Shown here: one piece after another, positions 1,049 through 44,846 of the stretch
How the letters are laid out: every line of letters begins with the position of its first letter
Position numbering within the stretch: position 1 is the stretch's first letter
Origin: a virus
Direction: 5' to 3' (one strand)
DNA: 45,222 nt
IMG/VR virus record: IMGVR_UViG_3300033429_000009
Coordinates: 1-45,222 of that record
The notes under the pieces: model-generated
Told to the model about the DNA's origin: nothing
What the model saw: only the letters and a program-made list of their open reading frames with translations
Databases searched by the model: none
Position numbers and translations under genes: made by a program

Positions 1049-1223
1049 GCGCGTCGGGCGCCTCGTATTGCGTGGGGCGTCCGAGCGCCGAGCGCTAGAG
1101 TTTCTGCGGGAGTGTGCGCTGGTCGATCTACAACAGGAGATCGCCGCGCTCGAACGGTGCCCGGGCCATCCTGGCATTAGACAACAGATAGAGGACAGTT
1201 ACGAGAGGATGAGGGAGCTATGA
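1029..1223 (+). CDS. Hypothetical protein, 64 aa
   Basis: Begins at a GTG inside the end of the preceding gene and ends four bases into the next start (ATGA overlap), so it belongs to the same translationally coupled run. It is predicted helical, rich in Glu, Arg and Leu, and could form a short helical bundle. No clear Shine-Dalgarno precedes the GTG, so the exact start is uncertain. Function unknown. Confidence 0.55.
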   Translation: MTTEELERVGRLVLRGASERRALEFLRECALVDLQQEIAALERCPGHPGIRQQIEDSYERMREL

Positions 1224-2132: not shown

Positions 2133-2473
2133 TAAATCTCACGAAACACGCGATCCACATAATAGCAGCCAACGGCGATCTGGTTACCATCCCACCGTCG
2201 GGACAATTGGCGATGGTGGCCATGAAACCGCCGCGTACCCTCTCTCCCGTGGAGTACGACGGGTACGAGATCCCGGTCGCTACCGTGGAGTACGGAGAGG
2301 TAGTACTGCCCCCCGACATAGACGGCCTTATCCTCGTCAGCACGATGACCGCCGACGCTATGAGAGCTCAGGGCATCACCGGATACCAGGTATACGTGCC
2401 CGACACCGGTCCGTCCGCTATTCGCGACGAGAAAGGGAGGATCCTATCCGTAGTTCGGTTGATCAGGAAGTGA
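2129..2473 (+). CDS. Conserved phage protein of the NLT-H / PPSG type, 114 aa
   Basis: Begins MINLTKHAIHI, carries an IPPSGQLA motif near residue 21, and ends with a PDTGPSAIRDEKG segment. These blocks match a small beta-rich family seen in many tailed phages, whose function I do not know. Start by ATGA overlap with the previous gene, with a GAGGA purine run upstream. The stop overlaps the GTG of the next small ORF (GTGA). Confidence 0.7.
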   Translation: MINLTKHAIHIIAANGDLVTIPPSGQLAMVAMKPPRTLSPVEYDGYEIPVATVEYGEVVLPPDIDGLILVSTMTADAMRAQGITGYQVYVPDTGPSAIRDEKGRILSVVRLIRK

Positions 2474-2595
2474 GCCGGCTTTGGCTACGGCATCGGCGTC
2501 TAGTTAGGGCGCGTGAGCGCAGACGTAGAATGCAAGCGGCGCTAGCTGCATTCTCGACGGCTTTCGACGCGGCTCTGTTAGACATTACCTGGTAG
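2470..2595 (+). CDS. Small basic ORF, 41 aa, ending inside the tRNA-like hairpin
   Basis: GTG start overlapping the preceding stop as GTGA. The first half is very Arg-rich (RHRRLVRARERRRR) and the second half is a hydrophobic helix ending DITW. Its TAG stop (2593-2595) lies directly after the 5' acceptor-like strand of the hairpin at 2587-2630, so ribosomes finishing here would melt that stem. It fills the gap between 2473 and the terminase start. It may be a real basic peptide or a leader that couples translation to the small terminase. Confidence 0.5.
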   Translation: MSRLWLRHRRLVRARERRRRMQAALAAFSTAFDAALLDITW

Positions 2596-2630
2596 GAGCA
2601 GGGCGGGTTCGACTCCCGCCCCCAGGTCCA
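2587..2630 (+). ncRNA. tRNA-like hairpin 1 (T arm plus acceptor end)
   Basis: ACCTGG (2587-2592) pairs with CCAGGT (2622-2627), and GGGCGGG (2601-2607) pairs with CCCGCCC (2615-2621), closed by the tRNA T-loop TTCGACT (2608-2614); CCA follows at 2628-2630. From the T-loop to the end the spacing is exactly that of a tRNA: 5-nt T stem, 7-nt acceptor strand, discriminator U, CCA. The 5' side has only an 8-nt linker (TAGGAGCA) where the D and anticodon arms should be; it resembles a D-loop fragment. The linker starts with the stop codon of the 41-aa ORF, and the AGG of the 3' strand is the only Shine-Dalgarno-like sequence before the terminase ATG at 2632. A full tRNA is excluded because upstream sequence offers no partner arms. 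Confidence 0.7.
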
Positions 2631-2631
2631 A

Positions 2632-3285
2632 ATGGCACGAAAACCACCGAATGCAGAGACCATCATGCGGGTCCTGTCCGCCATCAAATCCGGCGTGACG
2701 CTCTCCGAAGTTGCTCGCCGTGAGCGGGTATCCACGGCTACGATTCGCCGATGGGCACGCCTCTATGGCGCCGACGACGCGGGTACGCCGGCGCCGACAC
2801 CCACAGACGTCGCCCGTGCGGCTAGCCCCGCCGCGCGTGGGACGCTACCGTCTAGACTCGCACGCCTAGCGGAGCGCCTCCCCGAAAAGGAAGCTTCGCT
2901 AGTGCGCGAGGCGATCGAGTCGATCGAGGGCAAACATGCGCCCGTCGAGATGCCGGACCCGTCGGACGCGCTGGCATACACACAGGCGCTTGTTCGCCAG
3001 GCTCAGGCGGACTATGAGCGCGCTCGCGACATCAATGACACCACGGCCGCGAAGCAAACGCTGGCCATGATTCAAAAACTGATGCCTACGCTGAAAACTC
3101 TCAAGCGCGATGCTGTGGAAGAGAGCGGCGGTGTCGTGATCTCGCGTGCGGAGGTCGAGACCGCGGCGGCTACATTCCGAGAGCGAGTCGCTGCGCTCCT
3201 CGAGAAGCCGCTGCATTGTGCGGCATGCGGGGCCCGCGTGCGGACGTCGGACGCGTTAGCCGCGGCACGCGCGTCAAAGACCTAG
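2632..3285 (+). CDS. terS: Small terminase subunit (TerS)
   Basis: The DNA-recognition subunit that selects phage DNA for packaging. Residues about 10-45 form a helix-turn-helix of the terminase type (VTLSEVARRERVSTATIRRW). A Pro/Ala linker follows, then a long helical oligomerisation region (about 75-180) and a C-terminal tail with one CxxC (CAAC). The assignment rests on this architecture and on the large terminase next door. The ATG lies two bases after the CCA of the tRNA-like hairpin, and its AGG Shine-Dalgarno is buried in the hairpin's 3' strand. It converges on terL with a 12-bp overlap, whereas terS and terL are normally co-directional. Confidence 0.75.
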   Translation: MARKPPNAETIMRVLSAIKSGVTLSEVARRERVSTATIRRWARLYGADDAGTPAPTPTDVARAASPAARGTLPSRLARLAERLPEKEASLVREAIESIEGKHAPVEMPDPSDALAYTQALVRQAQADYERARDINDTTAAKQTLAMIQKLMPTLKTLKRDAVEESGGVVISRAEVETAAATFRERVAALLEKPLHCAACGARVRTSDALAAARASKT

Positions 3286-4701
3286 CCGCCCGCCCTTGCG
3301 GCGGGTGATCATGTCCTGAAGTTTCGCCGCGCCCGTTACAGCGCCCGCGTTGTCCTTCTTGTTGCGGATTGCTACCTCTAGCAGTTCGGCTACCGCATAC
3401 GCGCCGGCGTCTAGCCGATTCGGCGAACGCCGCGAGCACGGCTCCCATGTCGTTTGCTCGAGTTCGAGCGCAGTCAATCGCCCGACGTGGTGGACGACAC
3501 CACGGCTATACGCCGCGGCGGGTGCGGTGGCCCGCGTCTGTTTGGTGTCGGCCGTCATGTATTCGCGGATGTAAATGACGCCCTGTTTTCGCCGAGGGAA
3601 CGCGGCGTCTTCCCGCGGCAAAACTTCGACCTTCATGGCGTGATTTTTGGCGTGCAACGTGATAAGGTCGCGCGGCATGTTGCCTGCGTGGTTTCGCTCT
3701 AGTACGGCACCGGAGAAGCCCCGGTCCTTGCAGTCTAGCACGATCCGCTCGGCCACCACTGACGGCGTTTCGCGCGTCGAATGGTCCGCCAGAATATAGA
3801 CGTGGCCGTCGCGCGTCCGACATGCGGAGGTGCTGCCCTGTTCGTCGGCATCTGGGCTGTCAGATAGCGCGGGGTCCCATGCATGAAGCTTCAGTTCGAT
3901 GTCACGTTCTGGGGGCGCCTCCGCTACGCGGTGGTCATCTAGCCACTGTTGTTTCCAGAGCGCGCCAGCCGATTCGTTGAACGCTAGCCCCCGAACCTCC
4001 TCATCGTAGCGTCGCGTGCCGATGCCGTATTTCCGGACCTCGGTAGCTAGATATTCGGTGGTGAGGTGCGGGTTTTCGAACATGGCACCGCGTCGTAGGA
4101 TGTGCCACTCGGGATTAGCCGCGTGTTGGGCTAGCAGGAACTGAATGACTTCGTTTTTGCCTTTGGACGTCGTATCCCAGAAATACGTGGGGTTGCGTCC
4201 AACGCGGCATGCGGTGGTGATGTTGTCAAAAGCTTCGCGTCTAGTCGTGTGTTGCCAGTCGCATAGCTCTGTCAGCCAGGCGAGATCGAAGTTTGACGAG
4301 CGCGTGCGCCCGGCTTTCTCGGCGGTGTGCGGCTCCGCTATCACGCCATTGGGCCACCGCACCCCACCGCGGTATTCGGTTGCGCGGAACCAGGGCTTCG
4401 AGTGTTCGACGAGCGCAGCGACCTGAACGTCGCGCGTTCGATCGTCGGTGGGTGCCATGAGGCCGATGGCGGACGCCTCCCCCGCCTCGACGCGGCGATT
4501 GATCTCGAACGCGATGCCGTGGGTCTTGCCCCACCCGCGACCGGCGATGATGCCGAACGAACCGAATCGCGTGAGAGGCACCCGTTGCGCTGGGCGTAGC
4601 CATAGGTCGGTGTCGAACAGCGCGGCCACTAGCTCCTCGCGAGGGAGGATCTCCAGTAGGTCTGGACACGCGTGAGCGAGTGCCTCGGCTATCGCGATCA
4701 T
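3274..4701 (-). CDS. terL: Large terminase subunit (TerL)
   Basis: The packaging motor: it pumps DNA into the prohead through the portal and cuts concatemers. Walker A is AGRGWGKT (residues 53-60), and Walker B with the catalytic Glu is in LAWLTEL (E145). The C-terminal nuclease of the RNase H fold shows AWDPALSDSPDADEQ and a late NRLDAGAYAVAEL. At 475 aa it has a normal length. I start at the ATG overlapping the portal stop (ATGA) rather than the upstream in-frame GTG at 4740, which lies inside the portal gene; translation is probably coupled to portal. Gene order portal-terL on the minus strand is reversed relative to the other head genes. Confidence 0.92.
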   Translation of the reverse strand: MIAIAEALAHACPDLLEILPREELVAALFDTDLWLRPAQRVPLTRFGSFGIIAGRGWGKTHGIAFEINRRVEAGEASAIGLMAPTDDRTRDVQVAALVEHSKPWFRATEYRGGVRWPNGVIAEPHTAEKAGRTRSSNFDLAWLTELCDWQHTTRREAFDNITTACRVGRNPTYFWDTTSKGKNEVIQFLLAQHAANPEWHILRRGAMFENPHLTTEYLATEVRKYGIGTRRYDEEVRGLAFNESAGALWKQQWLDDHRVAEAPPERDIELKLHAWDPALSDSPDADEQGSTSACRTRDGHVYILADHSTRETPSVVAERIVLDCKDRGFSGAVLERNHAGNMPRDLITLHAKNHAMKVEVLPREDAAFPRRKQGVIYIREYMTADTKQTRATAPAAAYSRGVVHHVGRLTALELEQTTWEPCSRRSPNRLDAGAYAVAELLEVAIRNKKDNAGAVTGAAKLQDMITRRKGGRLGL

Positions 4702-6284
4702 GGCGTGTCCGCCGTAGCGGCCGCCTTCGCTTCGTTCCACTGGTCGAGCTCGGTCATTGTCATGTCGTCTCGTGCGTCACCGAACGGCGGGAGCCCTTGC
4801 GAGTCGCGAGCTTCAGAGGCACGGACCACCTTCGCGATGTCGGTCGGCGCAAGCTCGACCGTGCTCACCTTGCGGGATGCCACCTTTGGAGCCGGCGATA
4901 GTCCGACGTTGGACGCGATTCTGTTCGCCAGTTCCTGGTCCACGTCGAAACCGGCGCTTCTTAGGTCGGAGATCGTCTTGTTGAATTTCTCCCAAGCGAG
5001 CGCGGTTTGCTCGCGGATTTTCTGCTCGTCGCTATCCGGCATCTTGTAGTTGAACGACGGCGCCAGCCGCGAGTCCCCCTCATTTACCGCCGCCCACGGT
5101 TGTAGGACGCCAGTATCGATGCCGGCCTCAAGCACAAGGAAGTCTCCTTGGATCAACGTGGCCGCAACGCGGAACAGCTGCTCAATGTCAACGCCCGGCG
5201 CGCCTCCGGTGCTACCTAGGTAGGCGTCCGTACCCTGGTAGACGCGGGCCGCTGCTTTCTCTCGGTTGTTTGCGAATTCGGACCACACCTGCCATGCGGT
5301 GGATCCATTCGCTAGGAAGTCAGTTTTCGCGCCGGCGGGGCGAATGCCGGCGGGCGTGTCTCCAGAGATCATTCCTTGGAGTAGGTTCAGAAATTCTTGC
5401 GCCTCGTTCGTCGGCACTCCCTCCTCGTTGACTAGCGAGGTCCCTTCGGGGAGCTCACCGACGATTTTAGCCAGTCCGTGAGCGTTGCTTGATGCCGCCC
5501 AATCCCCGATGCCACCAGTATGTGCAGGGTAGATAAAGGCTGCCGCGAGTAGGCACGCTTCGTTGGCCCATGGCTCGGTCGCCATCGTTTTGAACACCGC
5601 CCACCGGCTGTCTCCGTGGACGATATCGACTAGCTCCCCGCTTTCGGTCCTAGTAGTAAGTGCCGAGCGAGTCGCGTCCCACCGCACATGCTCAAGCGGC
5701 CACTCCGTGAGTCGAAAATCGATGCGGGTGCCAGCTTCGTTCGGTTCGTGCTCGATGTAGCCGACGGCGATGCCGTGGTCCACGAGCGTGCCATGAATGC
5801 TCTTGAGCACCGACTTCGGCATGAACACGGAGTTCAGCGCTTTCGCGCGAAGCTGTTTCGCCCGGGTGGACGTATGACATCGAAGCTCGGTCGCGATTGC
5901 TGATTGCGGAGCTAGTCGATTTCGGCGCGCCGTGAAGATCGCGTCGTCCGTTCGCATGACGCGGGCGAGCTGAACTGGTAGACAGAATTGTCCCCTCAGC
6001 TGTTCGTTGCGCGCCGCTCGGATACGCTCGAGATCCCAGTCGGTGTACGCCCTCTGTCGCATGGGAGCAGTGACGGCCGCCTTCCCGACGAACTCCTCCG
6101 CGCGGCGGACGCGAGGAGCGAACTTCTCGAGGCGCACCGCGGTATCGTCGCGGATGTCGTAGCCCTCGATAGCCCGCCGCAGAGTATTTGGGTGCACCGC
6201 CGCGCGACGCGCGACCGCTTTCTCAGAGGTTGAATTTAGCTCGTCTCGCAGAGTTGAGCGCAACTGGTCGGAGATTGGTCGCAT
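4698..6284 (-). CDS. Portal protein (DUF935/Mu gp29-like) with N-terminal HTH
   Basis: The dodecameric vertex ring for DNA entry and neck attachment. From about residue 75 it follows the DUF935 portal pattern: a helical start, a block with GQFCLPVQLARVMRTDD, a central GDSRWAVFK and ACLLAAAFI core, and a GVDIEQLF...GDFLVLEAG region. Unusually, residues about 5-60 form an XRE/Cro-like helix-turn-helix (SEKAVARRAAVHPNTLRRAIEG) ahead of the portal domain in one uninterrupted frame. The ATG at 6284 has no Shine-Dalgarno and lies about 10 nt after a -10 box, so its message would be almost leaderless. A start at Met76 would remove the HTH but has no ribosome site that I can see. Confidence 0.85.
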   Translation of the reverse strand: MRPISDQLRSTLRDELNSTSEKAVARRAAVHPNTLRRAIEGYDIRDDTAVRLEKFAPRVRRAEEFVGKAAVTAPMRQRAYTDWDLERIRAARNEQLRGQFCLPVQLARVMRTDDAIFTARRNRLAPQSAIATELRCHTSTRAKQLRAKALNSVFMPKSVLKSIHGTLVDHGIAVGYIEHEPNEAGTRIDFRLTEWPLEHVRWDATRSALTTRTESGELVDIVHGDSRWAVFKTMATEPWANEACLLAAAFIYPAHTGGIGDWAASSNAHGLAKIVGELPEGTSLVNEEGVPTNEAQEFLNLLQGMISGDTPAGIRPAGAKTDFLANGSTAWQVWSEFANNREKAAARVYQGTDAYLGSTGGAPGVDIEQLFRVAATLIQGDFLVLEAGIDTGVLQPWAAVNEGDSRLAPSFNYKMPDSDEQKIREQTALAWEKFNKTISDLRSAGFDVDQELANRIASNVGLSPAPKVASRKVSTVELAPTDIAKVVRASEARDSQGLPPFGDARDDMTMTELDQWNEAKAAATADTP

Positions 6285-6293
6285 GTTGAGCGG

Positions 6294-6323
6294 ATAATAG
6301 CATGCTCACTGGCTTGACCGCAA
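6294..6323 (-). promoter_or_regulatory. Extended -10 promoter for portal-terL
   Basis: On the minus strand TTGCGG (6323-6318), an 18-nt spacer, and TATTAT (6299-6294) preceded by TGC, an extended -10. The predicted transcription start falls about 3 nt before the portal ATG at 6284. Only 64 bp separate the divergent portal and protease starts, so the rightward promoter must lie in or near the same stretch. Confidence 0.5.
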
Positions 6324-6348
6324 AGCTCTAGTAATTGAGACTTGACAG

Positions 6349-7455
6349 GTGCCTCTCACCGAAGTCTACCGCGGAGCGAGCTATGTAGCGTTGACCGACG
6401 CCTCCCTATCTGATGACCCCCCATCGGAATTCCGCATTTTGCGTGCGGGTCTGAACGCAACCTCTAAAGGCGATCTGGAATTCGACGCGGCCGCGGCCGC
6501 GTCCGTCATGGCTGCCTACAAGAAGAGTGGGGTCGATATGATGATCGATCTCGCTCACGACTCGATTTCTGAGGAGGCGCGGGCCAATAGGACTGATGCT
6601 GATGATGCGCGGGGGTGGTTTAGGCTCGAGCTCCGCGACGGTGAATTGTGGGCCACGGACGTTCGTTGGACGCCCGACGGAACGCGGCGATTGCGTGAGA
6701 AAACGCAACGGTATATCTCGCCCGTGGTGCTGTTTGACGACGGGCGAATCACTGAGATTCTGAATGTCGCCTTGTGCTCAATGCCAGCGACGTACAACGC
6801 GGCGCCGCTCGTTGCGGCGAGTAAATCATTGGAGATGTACGCGATGGATCCCAAACTGATCATGCAAGCGCTCGATGCGATCGAGACGGGCGACGAAGCG
6901 CTGGCCAAGCAGCTGCTCAAACAGATGGTGGCCGCGGCCGCGGGAGCGGAGGGCGGCGAGGAAGCGCCCGCTGAGGAACCTCAAGAGCCATCGGAGGAGA
7001 TGGCGGACACAGAAGAGGAAGAGGATACCGACGAAAAGGCGATGGCCGTGGCGCTCCGGCGATTCACCGGACGTAACAGCGCACTCGAAGCGGAGCGCGT
7101 GTTGGTCGCGTTGCGCGCAGAGAACAAGGCGCTCCGCAAGCGAGACGCGGAATTGACTTTCAGCGCTAGGCGGGAGCTTGTAGGTGACCTCGTTAAATTT
7201 GGCGCTGAGCTCCCCGCCACGGCGTGGGAAGATGCCGAAAACGGGGTGCCAGTCGAGCGCCTCCGAAACGAATCGCTGGACTCGCTGCGCACGCGAGTCG
7301 AGGCGTTCCGAAGCGTGCGCAAAGCGCAGACCAAAGCGCCGACGTCCGCCGCGAGTGGGCTGTCGGATATCGAGGAACGCTACACCAAGGATCTGACTCC
7401 CGCGCAGCGGGACCGCTACATTGAGCTGCGTGCTCAGCGAAAGGGGACGGCATAA
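6349..7455 (+). CDS. Prohead protease/scaffold, Mu gpI-like
   Basis: The maturation protease fused to the scaffold. Residues 1-165 match the Mu I family: FRILRAGLNATSKGDLEFD, the conserved His in MIDLAHDS, GWFRLELRDGELWA, and YISPVVLFDDGRITEILNVALCSMPA. A very acidic linker (about 190-225) leads to a coiled-coil scaffold region ending LRAQRKGTA. The GTG start follows the divergent promoter region. An in-frame internal start at 6844 with GGAG upstream could give the scaffold alone, as Mu does with gpZ. The stop overlaps the next start (TAATG). Confidence 0.87.
   Translation: MPLTEVYRGASYVALTDASLSDDPPSEFRILRAGLNATSKGDLEFDAAAAASVMAAYKKSGVDMMIDLAHDSISEEARANRTDADDARGWFRLELRDGELWATDVRWTPDGTRRLREKTQRYISPVVLFDDGRITEILNVALCSMPATYNAAPLVAASKSLEMYAMDPKLIMQALDAIETGDEALAKQLLKQMVAAAAGAEGGEEAPAEEPQEPSEEMADTEEEEDTDEKAMAVALRRFTGRNSALEAERVLVALRAENKALRKRDAELTFSARRELVGDLVKFGAELPATAWEDAENGVPVERLRNESLDSLRTRVEAFRSVRKAQTKAPTSAASGLSDIEERYTKDLTPAQRDRYIELRAQRKGTA
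6844..7455 (+). CDS. Candidate scaffold from a nested internal start
   Basis: An ATG at 6844, in the same frame as the protease gene, is preceded by GGAG with 9-nt spacing. It would make a 203-aa protein beginning MDPKLIMQALDAIETGD that lacks the protease domain and keeps the acidic linker and coiled coil. Phage Mu makes its scaffold Z from the 3' part of gene I in this way, which supports the reading. It has not been shown here and the internal start could be silent. Confidence 0.5.
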   Translation: MDPKLIMQALDAIETGDEALAKQLLKQMVAAAAGAEGGEEAPAEEPQEPSEEMADTEEEEDTDEKAMAVALRRFTGRNSALEAERVLVALRAENKALRKRDAELTFSARRELVGDLVKFGAELPATAWEDAENGVPVERLRNESLDSLRTRVEAFRSVRKAQTKAPTSAASGLSDIEERYTKDLTPAQRDRYIELRAQRKGTA

Positions 7456-8381
7456 TGGCCGCTACGACTTCACAACGAGCGACTAAATTCGCGGGCGTCG
7501 TTCCGTCGCGCGGAACCTATCCGATGGCCGCCAATGAGCTCATTGTTGGTGGCACGATCGTATGCGTCAACGCTAGCGGCCAGGCCGTGGCTGGTGTTGA
7601 CGGCGAGGGATTCAACGCGGTTGGTAAAGCTTCGCAGGACTACGATAACCGCACCACCGCGCCCGAGGGTGGCGGTGCTGGCGCTATCGATGCTGGGGTC
7701 GAGTACGGCCTGTTCGGCTGGGCGTATACCGGCACCGCACCAATCGCCGAGGACATTGTTTACGTTGTCGATAACCAGACTGTGAGTCTGGACAGCAACG
7801 GCGGGACGCGAGGAATCGCCGGTGTCGTGACCGAGGTCCGCGATAGCATGGTCTATGTGTGGATGGGCCCGCATGTCTCGGCGCTCACCCAAGGCTCTGG
7901 TGTCGTGAACGTTCCCCTGGACTCGTTCCGCACCGCGGCGGGCGCGGCAATCGCGGCGTTTAACGACGGTGCGGCGGACGGTTTCGTGGTCTCTGAAGGC
8001 CTCATGTATCGCTACAACGTCAGTTCTACCGCGCCGATTTGGACGACAGTAGCCATGCCGGCGGACTTGAATCCTGCGGTGGATGTCGTTGTTCACATGC
8101 TGGCGAGTCGTGAAGGATCCGCAGACACGGACGTCGTAGTCACGGTAGCCGCGTTTTTTCAAACGGTCGGCGCCGCTTACACGGCGGACGCAGACGCCGG
8201 AGGCGACACGGGCGCTTTGGCCGCGGCAACTACAGTCGTCGCTGAGCTGACTTTAGCTCTAGCCGCCGCGGACGTGCCAGCGGCGCCGTGCGCGCTTTCA
8301 CTTTCGCTAGTGCCCGATGCGGCGCTAGACGCCGATGATCTCAACATTCATGCCGTTTGGCTCGAGTACGCGCGGAAATAA
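7455..8381 (+). CDS. Head decoration/cement protein (DUF2190-like N-terminus)
   Basis: The N-terminal 130 residues fit the DUF2190 capsid-cement family: a basic start, NELIVGGTIVCVNASGQAV, GFNAVGKASQDYDNRT, then VEYGLFGWAYTG, and later DSMVYVWMG. The C-terminal half (about 140-308) is an added beta-rich, Ala-rich region, possibly surface exposed, that enlarges the protein beyond the usual 110-150 aa. It sits between protease and capsid, where decoration genes are found. The start overlaps the protease stop by one base. Confidence 0.75.
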   Translation: MAATTSQRATKFAGVVPSRGTYPMAANELIVGGTIVCVNASGQAVAGVDGEGFNAVGKASQDYDNRTTAPEGGGAGAIDAGVEYGLFGWAYTGTAPIAEDIVYVVDNQTVSLDSNGGTRGIAGVVTEVRDSMVYVWMGPHVSALTQGSGVVNVPLDSFRTAAGAAIAAFNDGAADGFVVSEGLMYRYNVSSTAPIWTTVAMPADLNPAVDVVVHMLASREGSADTDVVVTVAAFFQTVGAAYTADADAGGDTGALAAATTVVAELTLALAAADVPAAPCALSLSLVPDAALDADDLNIHAVWLEYARK

Positions 8382-8394
8382 GGAGACTGTTTAA

Positions 8395-9408
8395 ATGCCC
8401 CCTCGCCAATACGATGTAGTTTCGCGCGACGCGCAGATCGCGCTCACTGAATTCTCGGCTGCGTTCGACAAGGCGCTAGCGCTCGGCCCTGTCGATCAAT
8501 GGTCGCACCGGCTCGGCTATTACCACCTGAGCAACTCGATTAAGACTACGTTTCCCATCCCGATTTCTGCCGCGGGATACCAGAAGCGCGAAGGCGATTT
8601 GAAGCTCCGCTCGCTGTTCGGTCGTAGCCTTTCGATCGTTCCCGATCAGTGGCAAGACGGCGTGGCTGAGTTGCTGCGCAAAATCACCGCACCCGATTTC
8701 ATCGGGTGGGGGACGCAGCCAGCGGAGATGGCACGGGAAGCGTTCCGGTTCGGCAACGTGCTAGTGGCGGACGTTCTTGTTAGCAATCCGCTGCTAGACC
8801 TCTATCGCATTGAGCGAGCGGGTGGGTCGATCGCTAGCACGATCAACCTGTTCGCAGATGCTCACCCAGTGAATATTTTGGACGATAGCTACGGTACATT
8901 CGATAACAACCTCACTGGCAGTGCTATCGATGCCACGCTGGTGAAGGCCTTACGGCACCATTTCCGCACGATGAAAGGACCCAACGGTCGACCTTTGGGT
9001 CTAGAACTCAGCCACCTCATCGTGCCACCGGCGCGTGAGCAAGAGGCGCTCGACTTCTTCGACCGCGATACGGTGGTCGAGGTCGTCCAGAATGTAGCTG
9101 GCGCTGAGAACGTGGCGGCCGTCACCCAGAGGAATCGCCACAAGGGGGTCGAGTTGGTCGTGGCGGACGAGCTTATCGGAGACCTCCCGAGCGGTAACAC
9201 TGGTTCGGATGACGAACTATTCGCGATCGGTAGCAGTGGGCGTATTCCTGCGTGGGTGCTGCAGGACGGCGGTGCTCCCGAGCAAGTCGTGTTTGACGAA
9301 TCCGATCATCTGTATAAGACAACCGGAAAGGTCGCAATCTCGTATGTGTTGGACGCTGGTGCGGCCGGCGCCCTTCCGCAGGGGATCGCGAAGGTCACGC
9401 TGAGCTAG
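8395..9408 (+). CDS. Major capsid protein, Mu gpT-like
   Basis: 337 aa behind a strong AAGGAG. The middle contains YQKREGDLKLRSLFGRSLSIVPDQWQDGV and LVSNPLLDLYRIERAG, and the second half has LIVPPAREQEALDFFDRDTVVEVVQNV and VELVVADELIGD, which resemble gpT/HK97-fold capsids of Mu-like phages. It follows the decoration gene and is followed by a hairpin attenuator, a common way to give capsid the most abundant transcript. Confidence 0.82.
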   Translation: MPPRQYDVVSRDAQIALTEFSAAFDKALALGPVDQWSHRLGYYHLSNSIKTTFPIPISAAGYQKREGDLKLRSLFGRSLSIVPDQWQDGVAELLRKITAPDFIGWGTQPAEMAREAFRFGNVLVADVLVSNPLLDLYRIERAGGSIASTINLFADAHPVNILDDSYGTFDNNLTGSAIDATLVKALRHHFRTMKGPNGRPLGLELSHLIVPPAREQEALDFFDRDTVVEVVQNVAGAENVAAVTQRNRHKGVELVVADELIGDLPSGNTGSDDELFAIGSSGRIPAWVLQDGGAPEQVVFDESDHLYKTTGKVAISYVLDAGAAGALPQGIAKVTLS

Positions 9409-10108: not shown

Positions 10109-10518
10109 TGGCTGGCGTGCGAAGCATCGGCCGCTTGTCGTTGCGCGACCTGAAAGCGCAGTTGCGCGCGATGCCGAAGACCCTGGCGACTGACGTCGCG
10201 AGGGAAGCCGCGCCTATGCTGACTGGGCTAGCGCAAACCTCGTTTGACAGTGGACGCACCGTCTATAATGACGCGCGTCCGACAGGCGCAAAAGGGAACA
10301 CGCTCACTCTCCGCAAGTCCGGAGCAGTGCGAAGCGCACTTCGATTCGTCGCTATCGGGACCGTCATGCGGGTGGTGCTAGGACCGCGGTACGCTCGGTA
10401 TTTGATTGGTAAATATCGCATCCTTCCGGTCGGTGACCGAAGCGCAATTCCAGCGCATTGGCGTCGTGAGATCGAGCGAATCACGCTACGATTGCTGCAG
10501 GCGAGGAGGGCGGCATGA
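10105..10518 (+). CDS. Virion morphogenesis/tail completion protein (Mu gpG-like position)
   Basis: A basic 137-aa protein with an N-terminal helix (LRDLKAQLRAMPKTLATDVAREAAPMLT cut short here), a central AVRSALRFVAIGTVMRVVLGPRYARYLIGKY, and a C-terminal IPAHWRREIERI. This layout matches HK97 gp10/Mu gpG-type neck proteins. It lies between the connector and the probable tail terminator with four-base overlaps on both sides. Family assignment is by pattern and position. Confidence 0.6.
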   Translation: MMAGVRSIGRLSLRDLKAQLRAMPKTLATDVAREAAPMLTGLAQTSFDSGRTVYNDARPTGAKGNTLTLRKSGAVRSALRFVAIGTVMRVVLGPRYARYLIGKYRILPVGDRSAIPAHWRREIERITLRLLQARRAA

Positions 10519-43391: not shown

Positions 43392-43627
43392 GCGTACTCT
43401 CCCGCGCATTTCGCGCTGCAAAACGGCGCCCCGTCGGGGTCGCCCAAAGCGTTTTTGGTGTCGTGAGGGTAGCGAGTCCCGCACACGACGCAGGTCACGA
43501 GACCGCGGCGATCTCGGACGGCTACGACGCGAGAGACCGTGGAGCGATCCTTGCGGTCACGGTACTCGAGACACTCCCACACGTCCGGTGATGGGTGCGG
43601 TACCCACTGCCAGCCGACTAGAGTCAT
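43388..43627 (-). CDS. Small zinc-finger protein, 79 aa
   Basis: ATG 43627 overlaps the preceding stop. The second half carries CVVCGTRYPHD and FCSAKCAGEYA: a C-x2-C and a C-x3-C about 22 residues apart, a treble-clef or zinc-ribbon type metal site. N-terminal 40 residues are basic and beta-rich. Probably a nucleic-acid or protein-binding adaptor; function unknown. Confidence 0.65.
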   Translation of the reverse strand: MTLVGWQWVPHPSPDVWECLEYRDRKDRSTVSRVVAVRDRRGLVTCVVCGTRYPHDTKNALGDPDGAPFCSAKCAGEYA

Positions 43628-43944
43628 GCGCACCTCTCGGCCTCGTAGCGCACGCCACGTGCCAGTTCCTCAGGGCCGCAAAAATCACGCAGACGAAGCT
43701 GTCCCCGCCGGAGGGGTGACTCCCACGATAGTACGAGGTCGGATTCGAGGCGAATCGAGATGACTGCCTGACGTTTTGGCAGGGCCCGCATCGCGGCTCG
43801 GATCCTGCGGGCCCTGAAGGCTCGCCCGTCGGGGGCGACAGTCACTTGGATGCGCCCGGAGGCGGGAGCGCACGCGATGTATCGCGGGTAGTAGACCCAT
43901 ACGACGGGCCATTTTTTGATGTCAGAGGGGGTCATCGTCGTCAT
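43624..43944 (-). CDS. Hypothetical basic protein, 106 aa
   Basis: Starts behind GAGGAAACAAC. Basic, mixed beta/alpha (KKWPVVWVYYPRYIACAPASGRIQVTVAPDG, RQAVISIRLESDLVLSWESPLRRGQLRLRDFCGPEELA). The 31-nt leader upstream separates it from tRNA-like hairpin 2 (43975-44013). Function unknown. Confidence 0.6.
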   Translation of the reverse strand: MTTMTPSDIKKWPVVWVYYPRYIACAPASGRIQVTVAPDGRAFRARRIRAAMRALPKRQAVISIRLESDLVLSWESPLRRGQLRLRDFCGPEELARGVRYEAERCA

Positions 43945-43974
43945 GTTGTTTCCTCATCTGCGCCTAGGCGCGGA

Positions 43975-44013
43975 GCCAGGGGTGGGAGTCGAACCCACCC
44001 TACACCTTCTGGC
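43975..44013 (-). ncRNA. tRNA-like hairpin 2
   Basis: On the minus strand GCCAG (44013-44009) pairs with CTGGC (43979-43975), and GGGTGGG (44000-43994) pairs with CCCACCC (43986-43980) around the T-loop TTCGACT (43993-43987). After CTGGC come T and CCG, so the spacing equals that of a tRNA 3' end with CCG in place of CCA. The 8-nt linker replaces the D and anticodon arms. It begins just 2 nt after the TGA stop of the 132-aa gene and ends 30 nt before the ATG at 43944. No full tRNA is possible here because upstream sequence is the coding end. Confidence 0.7.
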
Positions 44014-44015
44014 AG

Positions 44016-44414
44016 TCACCTACAGAGAGTCGCGCGCAGCCACGCCTTACGGCGTGCCTGTGCGGCATCGAGGTGAGGATAGGCGGCCGCCGCATCGGAG
44101 TGGCCGTCCACACACAGCATGCCGTCGGAGTCACACCATACCCGCACGGTCTGACCCTCGGGGCCGATGAACCGCACCTCCGGTGGGACTGGCGGCAGGC
44201 TGGCCATCGCTCGCTCCCTACGGCGGCGCGCTGCTACATCGGCTCGCCCGCGGGGCCCGGGTCGGACGGACTCGCACAGCCCGCTATCAGTCGCTGAGAT
44301 GTGCACGGGCTCAGAGCGTGACGTGGCCAGGGTCATGGCCTGGTCGCGCGCTGAATCTAGAGACTCATGCTGGTGCCCGATGATGACGTCGTGCTGGTTC
44401 GTGATTGTGTACAT
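44016..44414 (-). CDS. Hypothetical protein, 132 aa
   Basis: ATG 44414 behind CCAGGATACCGAC. The N-terminal half (MYTITNQHDVIIGHQHESLDSARDQAMTL) resembles small phage regulators of beta/alpha type. A basic middle (RGRADVAARRRRERAMASLP) follows, then VRFIGPEGQTVRVWCDSDGMLCVDGHSDAAAAY. It ends RATLCR with the bases TCTGTAGGTG, which also end the 108-aa gene, right before a tRNA-like hairpin. Function unknown. Confidence 0.55.
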   Translation of the reverse strand: MYTITNQHDVIIGHQHESLDSARDQAMTLATSRSEPVHISATDSGLCESVRPGPRGRADVAARRRRERAMASLPPVPPEVRFIGPEGQTVRVWCDSDGMLCVDGHSDAAAAYPHLDAAQARRKAWLRATLCR

Positions 44415-44477
44415 GTCGGTATCCTGGTGGTAGTGTGAGCGCCGTGGGGATCCCCCGCAGGGGGCCGTCGGGCGCGG

Positions 44478-44521
44478 AGCCAGGGGTGGGAATCGAACCC
44501 ACCCAAATCTCCAAGCTGGCT
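44478..44521 (-). ncRNA. tRNA-like hairpin 3
   Basis: On the minus strand AGCCAG (44521-44516) pairs with CTGGCT (44483-44478), and GGGTGGG (44504-44498) pairs with CCCACCC (44490-44484) around T-loop TTCGATT (44497-44491); CCG follows the U. The linker is 11 nt and contains TTGGAG. The TAG stop of the 108-aa gene (44522-44520) overlaps the 5' strand. Compared with copies 1 and 2, paired bases change together, keeping the structure. Confidence 0.7.
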
Positions 44522-44846
44522 AGCACCTACAGATGCGAGCGAGTGCGTCCAGATCGTCATCCTCCCCGTCTGCGATGATGCGGTCGCATAGGGCTACCAT
44601 GTCCTCGTCACCGGCCGAGACGGCCGTCGTCCGCACGCCGCGCGCCGTGTCCCGATCCACGATGAGGTGGACTCGCCAGGGGTAGCCGTCCTTGTCCGCA
44701 CCCCAGAATTCGTGGGCTCGGTCAGCCCATGCGTGGCCATCGCACTTTACTACCAGGTCATTGTCGGCGGCTGTGGAATAGCTGAGGGTGACGGTCTCGT
44801 TGCGGGCGATGCTGCGGTCGATGGCTTTGTCGGTGGCGATGGTCAT
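44520..44846 (-). CDS. Hypothetical acidic protein, 108 aa, first right-arm gene
   Basis: ATG 44846 behind GAGGAGACACGACC, the leader shared with 369 and 41809. Content: a basic-acidic helix (TIATDKAIDRSIARNETVTLSYSTAADNDLVVK), WGADKDGYPWRVHLIVDRDTARG, and an acidic helix (VALCDRIIADGEDDDLDALARICRC). Its stop is within tRNA-like hairpin 3. Nearest gene to the right-end repeats, so an early gene is likely. Function unknown. Confidence 0.55.
   Translation of the reverse strand: MTIATDKAIDRSIARNETVTLSYSTAADNDLVVKCDGHAWADRAHEFWGADKDGYPWRVHLIVDRDTARGVRTTAVSAGDEDMVALCDRIIADGEDDDLDALARICRC

Follow-up and report, generated by a model that had tools for sequence, protein, structure and literature searches.

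Anticodon-less mini-tRNA elements behind stop codons in viruses of bacteria and archaea: candidate intra-operon processing signals

INTRODUCTION

Why should a viral genome carry what looks like a shortened tRNA at the ends of several of its small genes? The question is raised by a viral DNA of 45,222 nucleotides (IMG/VR record IMGVR_UViG_3300033429_000009, positions 1 to 45,222), which was analysed as a whole and is referred to here as the window. The original prediction, made from the sequence, described a tRNA-like element at 2587 and two further copies on the minus strand, and proposed that they form a selected RNA element punctuating small genes. The window contig looks like that of a myovirus lacking close relatives in culture, its polymerase standing at 32% to Corynebacterium phages. 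Genes for a Mu-like portal, protease and head protein lie beside baseplate-wedge-like genes and a PolA at 4698-9408. A search with the polymerase identified one close relative (56% polymerase identity), which is the nearest to the source phage, while a search with the terminase found no relatives.

RESULTS

Three elements of one anatomy in the window

Both minus-strand copies were recovered at 44013-43975 and 44521-44478, and the three elements exhibited the same T-loop and geometry, as predicted (Table 1). A strict scan (i.e. a TTCRANN loop closed by a T-stem of 7 bp or more, an acceptor of 5 bp or more and a linker of 6-14 nt) detected exactly three elements in the window as compared to 0.007 per dinucleotide-shuffled window (300 shuffles, maximum 1). 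Folding z-scores were about -2.2 for each copy. The helix is followed by TCC(A/G) in the window copies, and CCA occupies 2628-2630 directly behind copy 1. ARAGORN reported no tRNA in the window and no Rfam family matched the window elements at gathering score. One other site in the window (28295-28254) was set aside, together with loci L193, L192, L113, L117 and L115, as doubtful, tRNA or chance.

Table 1. Mini-tRNA elements of the window with neighbouring open reading frames and hairpins
Feature	Position	Strand	Description
41-aa ORF	2470-2595	+	putative gene; its one line of support is the open frame
Mini-tRNA copy 1	2587-2627	+	acceptor ACCTGG/CCAGGT, linker TAGGAGCA, T-stem GGGCGGG/CCCGCCC (7-bp T-arm), loop TTCGACT
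Gene downstream of copy 1	2632-3285	+	HTH protein (HTH_Tnp_1); ATG 4 nt past copy 1
ORF downstream of copy 2	43624-43944	-	106 aa; ATG 30 nt past copy 2
Short palindromic hairpin past copy 2	43960-43971	-	GCGC-CTAG-GCGC
Mini-tRNA copy 2	44013-43975	-	GCCAG-AAGGTGTA-GGGTGGG-TTCGACT-CCCACCC-CTGGC; 7-bp T-arm
Small ORF between copies 3 and 2	44016-44414	-	132 aa
Short hairpin past copy 3	44452-44464	-	CCCCC-3 nt-GGGGG, typical second structure of this family
Mini-tRNA copy 3	44521-44478	-	AGCCAG-CTTGGAGATTT-GGGTGGG-TTCGATT-CCCACCC-CTGGCT; 7-bp T-arm; D-like CTTGGAG
Small early-region ORF ending at copy 3	44520-44846	-	108 aa

The predicted location at or just past a stop codon was also confirmed. 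The 5' base of copy 3 (44521) is the A of the TAG closing ORF 44846-44520, copy 2 (44013) begins 2 nt past the TGA of ORF 44414-44016, and the linker of copy 1 contains the TAG (2593-2595) of the 41-aa ORF. The paired stem changes cited as covariation are present between copy 1 and the other two. Copies 2 and 3 have the same T-stem and common flanking sequence (CTGTAGGTG upstream, CTGGCTCCGCGC downstream), indicating that they are paralogues; covariation within the window therefore amounts to a single comparison and is weak on three copies, while relatives elsewhere do covary.

Relatives in other viral contigs

A first pattern applied to viral contigs (i.e. CCAG...CCTGG) was too strict and gave no matches. 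A second, GGAGCAN{2,9}GGTTCGANTCC, originated from the copy 1 linker GGAGCA and yielded at least 120 matches; among the matches listed, most were ordinary tRNA variable regions, which were removed by an acceptor test. A distinct group had flanks forming a second helix that adjoins the T-arm, and this mini-tRNA group has CTTGGAGCA or CATGGTGCA in common. The pattern TTGGAGCAN{2,9}GGTTCGAYTCC recovered 43 contigs, and the scanner detected several linker-variant elements in each of L220, L229, L231, L237 and L211. Pattern, scanner and covariance-model searches together produced about 90 elements, distributed over about 35 IMG/VR contigs with up to 13 in a single one. Arrays were confined to one short stretch of each contig, with 13 elements falling within 4.5 kb in L220 and six occurring in L231.

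The covariance-model search had been proposed as a check in the original prediction and did find a family. A model (R1) built on 17 equal-length members, with the window excluded, gave 93 matches in 46 loci. It detected copy 3 with 34.0 bits (E=1e-8) and copy 1 with 24.8 bits (E=1.2e-5), the latter not being a fully independent test because the search patterns came from copy 1. Copy 2 scored 20 bits (E=5e-4) through its T-arm only, which counts against the processing reading discussed below. At gathering score, RF00005 of Rfam did not match at the elements and hit one separate tRNA, in L116; the family elements were likewise unmatched by any Rfam family. A nucleotide search of cultured phages with L220 and L229 gave no matches.

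Structure and covariation

The elements consist of about 40 bases comprising an acceptor helix (mostly 7 bp), a D-loop-like GG segment and a T-arm with a TTCGAYT loop. Two tRNA hallmarks, an acceptor stem and a T-arm with a TTCRANY loop, are thus present, while the anticodon arm and anticodon are absent and the linker measures only 8-14 nt. The linker GG and the TTCGAYT loop reproduce both partners of the tRNA elbow.

The main unbiased test of this structure made use of TTGGAGCAN{2,9}GGTTCGAYTCC, which is silent on the acceptor. An acceptor of at least 5 bp was present in 35 of 42 distinct instances, with a mode of 7 as in tRNA, as compared to 12% for shuffled flanks. In an alignment of 17 equal-length members (A2), all 15 pairs were kept in 99.6% of cells (39-59% in slid controls) and changes on both sides occurred in 14 of the 15, counts that lean towards the acceptor because the scanner selected for acceptor pairing. 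The small D-like hairpin, for which the scanner did not select, also covaries with pairing kept (e.g. CTTGGAG, CATGGTG, TTTGGAA and AATGGTT).

The actinophage elements exhibited A at N73 in 29 of 33 cases, C at N74 in 31 of 33, and a D-like GGCAGACA resembling a tRNA D-arm. Among the IMG/VR elements, C predominates at the discriminator and few encode CCA, which is unusual for a tRNA end and counts against the processing reading. Two elements of L230 (3416-3459 and 4378-4422, minus strand) have an ATCGTYT loop where TTCGAYT is usual, so that both members of the T54-A58 loop pair are changed. The element at the head of the L220 array (2472-2529, plus strand) is longer, resembles tRNA-Glu and ends in GCCA; it is possibly an ancestral or intermediate form. 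At L043 (3620-3800), two tandem tRNA-like pieces containing T-arms have similar CCTGTTCAG endings and lie beyond the reach of ARAGORN.

Descent from tRNA is possible, and the D-like segments that resemble true tRNA D-arms and the tRNA-Glu-like element of L220 are consistent with it. That the elements are simply decayed tRNA genes or attP sites is scarcely credible, and as a whole account it is refuted: decay loses pairing, whereas these stems are intact and covary, there are many copies per genome and their gene-terminal place is constant. The outcome named beforehand as fatal to the prediction, that the copies are random hairpins or pieces of one decayed tRNA without similarly placed relatives, did not materialize, as relatives occur in unrelated contigs and in cultured phages.

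Occurrence in cultured viruses

Annotated phages were reached by BLAST with concatenated elements. The model and scanner identified arrays in Streptomyces phages SunsetPointe and phiHau3, mycobacteriophage Damien and Gordonia phage Cafasso. Mycobacteriophages Cuco and Archetta, halovirus HF1 and the tailless halovirus SH1 carried elements singly or in pairs; shuffled actinophage genomes contained 0.05-0.1 such matches each. A second BLAST with actinophage and halovirus elements matched 970 places in 261 cultured-virus records, structure having been checked in the named phages. By host, these records comprised Streptomyces (114), Mycobacterium (80), Halorubrum (31), Haloarcula (13), Gordonia (9), Riemerella (5), Arthrobacter (5) and others (4). 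The listed genera are actinobacterial, haloarchaeal or Riemerella, a pattern biased by the query elements. In most hosts of these three kinds, CCA is not encoded and RNase Z is used.

Elements were also present in 11 of 60 haloarchaeal genome assemblies at E <= 1e-4 (L242:2804-2844 and 1157-1197 (-); L244-L247; L272-L274), and those of Halobellus captivus stand behind large genes resembling genes for exported proteins. The early terminators of phiC31, which are poly-U-less, were considered as relatives and rejected since the phiC31 genome is without a mini-tRNA. Between tRNA genes of Bacillus phage Goe3 lies a sequence (L254:1985-2040) of the form CTCGCA...GTCTGGAGAC...CAGGG-TTCGATT-CCCTG...TGCGAG, a possible larger variant in the phage of a CCA-encoding host. 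Other structured or repeated sequences were observed in some of the loci. A Type II hammerhead ribozyme (52.9 bits) occupies L145:1471-1541, 430 nt upstream of a mini-tRNA element, and HF1 has an annotated hammerhead ribozyme at 10292-10359. In L083, both minus-strand elements (6270 and 7251) are followed by GTGGATGTTCCACGTGAAACA, part of which resembles a chromosomal parS site.

Position relative to genes

Association with stop codons, another check proposed at the outset, lay far above the control. In total, 64 of 83 distinct elements begin between -13 and +5 nt from the stop of an ORF that is 40 codons or longer, as compared to 7.3% of random positions, and 21 of the 83 start on the second base of the stop. 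GenBank annotation places 31 of 32 array elements at most 52 nt behind a stop and in sense: 10/10 in SunsetPointe (at 8-39 nt), 5/5 in phiHau3, 8/8 in Damien and 8/9 in Cafasso, where they are in sense with genes of both strands. The right arm of SunsetPointe has 12 intergenic gaps measuring 70 nt or more, and ten of them contain an element. Relatives with different stems thus hold the same position in many unrelated phages, and at the level of sequence this supports the proposal of a selected gene-terminal family punctuating small genes.

The elements lie within runs of same-strand genes, with the next start mostly 4-75 nt away and often only a hairpin and an SD between. The usual order past the element is a short hairpin (for half or more of the elements), the SD and the next gene start. 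A hairpin of at least 5 bp was found in the 32 nt past the element in 52% of cases (10% when shuffled), and actinophage elements exhibited a second hairpin in 21 of 33 (versus 11%).

Stable GC hairpins between genes, often backed by a second one, might suggest intrinsic or factor-dependent terminators between single-gene units. No T-run follows the window copies (copies 2 and 3 among them) or the array elements, however; the 4-50 nt to the next ATG are too short for a promoter per gene, and the identity of the T-loop and D-loop would be left unexplained, making termination very improbable. In the window, the next ATG follows copy 1 by 4 nt and copy 2 by 30 nt, too short a distance for a promoter, indicating that the next gene is transcribed through the element from upstream, which argues against a terminator and for an element internal to an operon.

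The GGAG present in many linkers and the many copies per genome could alternatively point to a decoy titrating host elbow-binding factors, or to control of reinitiation by an SD-like GGAG and the fold. This too is quite improbable, as GGTG, GGTT and GGCA stand in for GGAG and most downstream genes have their own SD past the element in the actinophages inspected.

Breaks in similarity at the elements

Similarity among the contigs of one related group is interrupted at the element. L123 and L222 agree fully upstream (1.00) and diverge downstream (0.73/0.58), while L218 and L233 resemble each other downstream (0.91) and show no relationship upstream (0.07); the L220 array is a cassette-like series of 13 small unrelated genes. 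The elements might accordingly be recombination joints, i.e. conserved module ends where cassettes are swapped, whether through homology or through a recombinase. Precedents exist in the PeSL cassettes of T-even phages and in integron attC sites, where a repeated structured element borders small exchangeable genes. PeSL and attC differ from the mini-tRNA elements in having no tRNA features. Of the PeSL combination (i.e. an early promoter plus a stem-loop between genes), the stem-loops are present and the distances leave little promoter room. Conservation of the T-loop, the D-loop GG and N73/N74 together with covariation requires a folded RNA and not DNA homology, stems differ among copies of one genome (L220, L237), and breakpoints would be expected at any conserved spacer. 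As the explanation of the elements, joints are distinctly unlikely; a role in gene exchange may nevertheless be compatible with one in processing.

DISCUSSION

A candidate processing signal

We consider it about an even chance (roughly 50%) that the elements act as intra-operon processing signals cut by RNase P and/or RNase Z in the manner of t-elements, a reading drawn from sequence and from analogy. The tRNA elbow is read by RNase P, RNase Z and the CCA-adding enzyme (PMC4810234). In Haloferax, RNase P and tRNase Z cut tandem tRNA-like elements that flank a crRNA (PMC4946936), and in plant mitochondria tRNA-like t-elements at mRNA ends are cut by tRNA maturation enzymes (PMC4125048, PMC4368725). 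Processing is favoured by the covarying structure and elbow hallmarks of the viral elements, by the reading of the elbow by both nucleases, by the gene-terminal position within runs of same-strand genes, by the second hairpin, by the hosts of the matching cultured viruses and by these haloarchaeal and plant-mitochondrial precedents.

The virus would build a minimal tRNA mimic into a polycistronic transcript directly behind the stop codon, and the host tRNA maturation enzymes would most likely recognise it through the acceptor/T helix and the elbow. RNase P would then cut on the 5' side, at or just past the stop codon, and the cut following the discriminator base would be made by RNase Z or a different 3' maturase. 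The presumed benefit of such cleavage is that a long early transcript would be converted into single-gene mRNAs with defined ends, the short hairpin past the element becoming a protective 5' end of the next mRNA. In many copies a 5' cut would fall inside the stop codon (T|AA) and create a nonstop mRNA. The 5' side may therefore not be cleaved at all, or be cleaved only once translation is over; cutting on the 3' side alone, or after termination, would avoid a nonstop message. The nearest relative of the window's phage has a full tRNA and no mini-tRNA elements, which counts against processing.

A passive role as an mRNA 3'-end stabiliser was also weighed, in which the mini-tRNA, perhaps CCA-tailed, would block 3'-5' exonucleases but would not itself direct cleavage. 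It would fit the position behind stop codons, the stable helix and the tRNA-like A73-C74 end of the actinophage elements. A plain GC hairpin would be enough for this purpose, however, leaving elbow mimicry superfluous, and with the next gene tens of nt away a free 3' end requires a prior cut; stabilisation as the sole function is therefore possible but unlikely.

Processing and gene exchange may be joined in a broader proposal, which is tentative and falls somewhat short of even odds. Viruses of actinobacteria, haloarchaea and probably Bacteroidota might use an operon-punctuation code in which the mini-tRNA and the 5'-protecting hairpin direct gene-by-gene cutting by host RNase P/RNase Z. The element might also be the joint where new gene cassettes are taken up, as each inserted gene would bring its own processing signal.

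Comparison with known systems

tRNA-like processing devices are already known from organelles and lncRNAs. The viral elements resemble t-elements in placing a tRNA-like structure at mRNA termini or between genes, and differ from them in measuring about 40 nt, in lacking the anticodon arm, in standing behind many genes of an array, in the second hairpin and in that their cleavage is a prediction. In animal mitochondrial transcripts, tRNAs between genes mark processing sites and sometimes overlap an incomplete stop codon; those are real decoding tRNAs, whereas the viral mini-elements are non-decoding. MALAT1 mascRNA, MEN beta menRNA and the 3' TLS of plant RNA viruses likewise recruit tRNA enzymes by elbow mimicry but are eukaryotic and single copies at a transcript end. 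An acceptor stem plus T-arm is also the architecture of RNase P model substrates, which are artificial, whereas the viral elements are natural and repeated.

In agreement with the original prediction, which knew of no gene-terminal mini-tRNA set of this type, neither Rfam nor the papers searched held a description of such elements; subscription literature lay outside that search and a prior description is possible. On the sequence evidence, what appears new is how far the structure is reduced, its use gene by gene and its presence in viruses that infect bacteria and archaea.

Significance

Well-known cultured phages apparently carry an unannotated RNA family that occupies a constant position relative to genes. 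If its members are cleaved, they would constitute the first gene-by-gene tRNA punctuation outside organelles known to us and would explain the intergenic spacing of the actinophage and halovirus arrays. The family would also allow gene ends to be marked by a covariance model during annotation, and would suggest a portable device for splitting operons.
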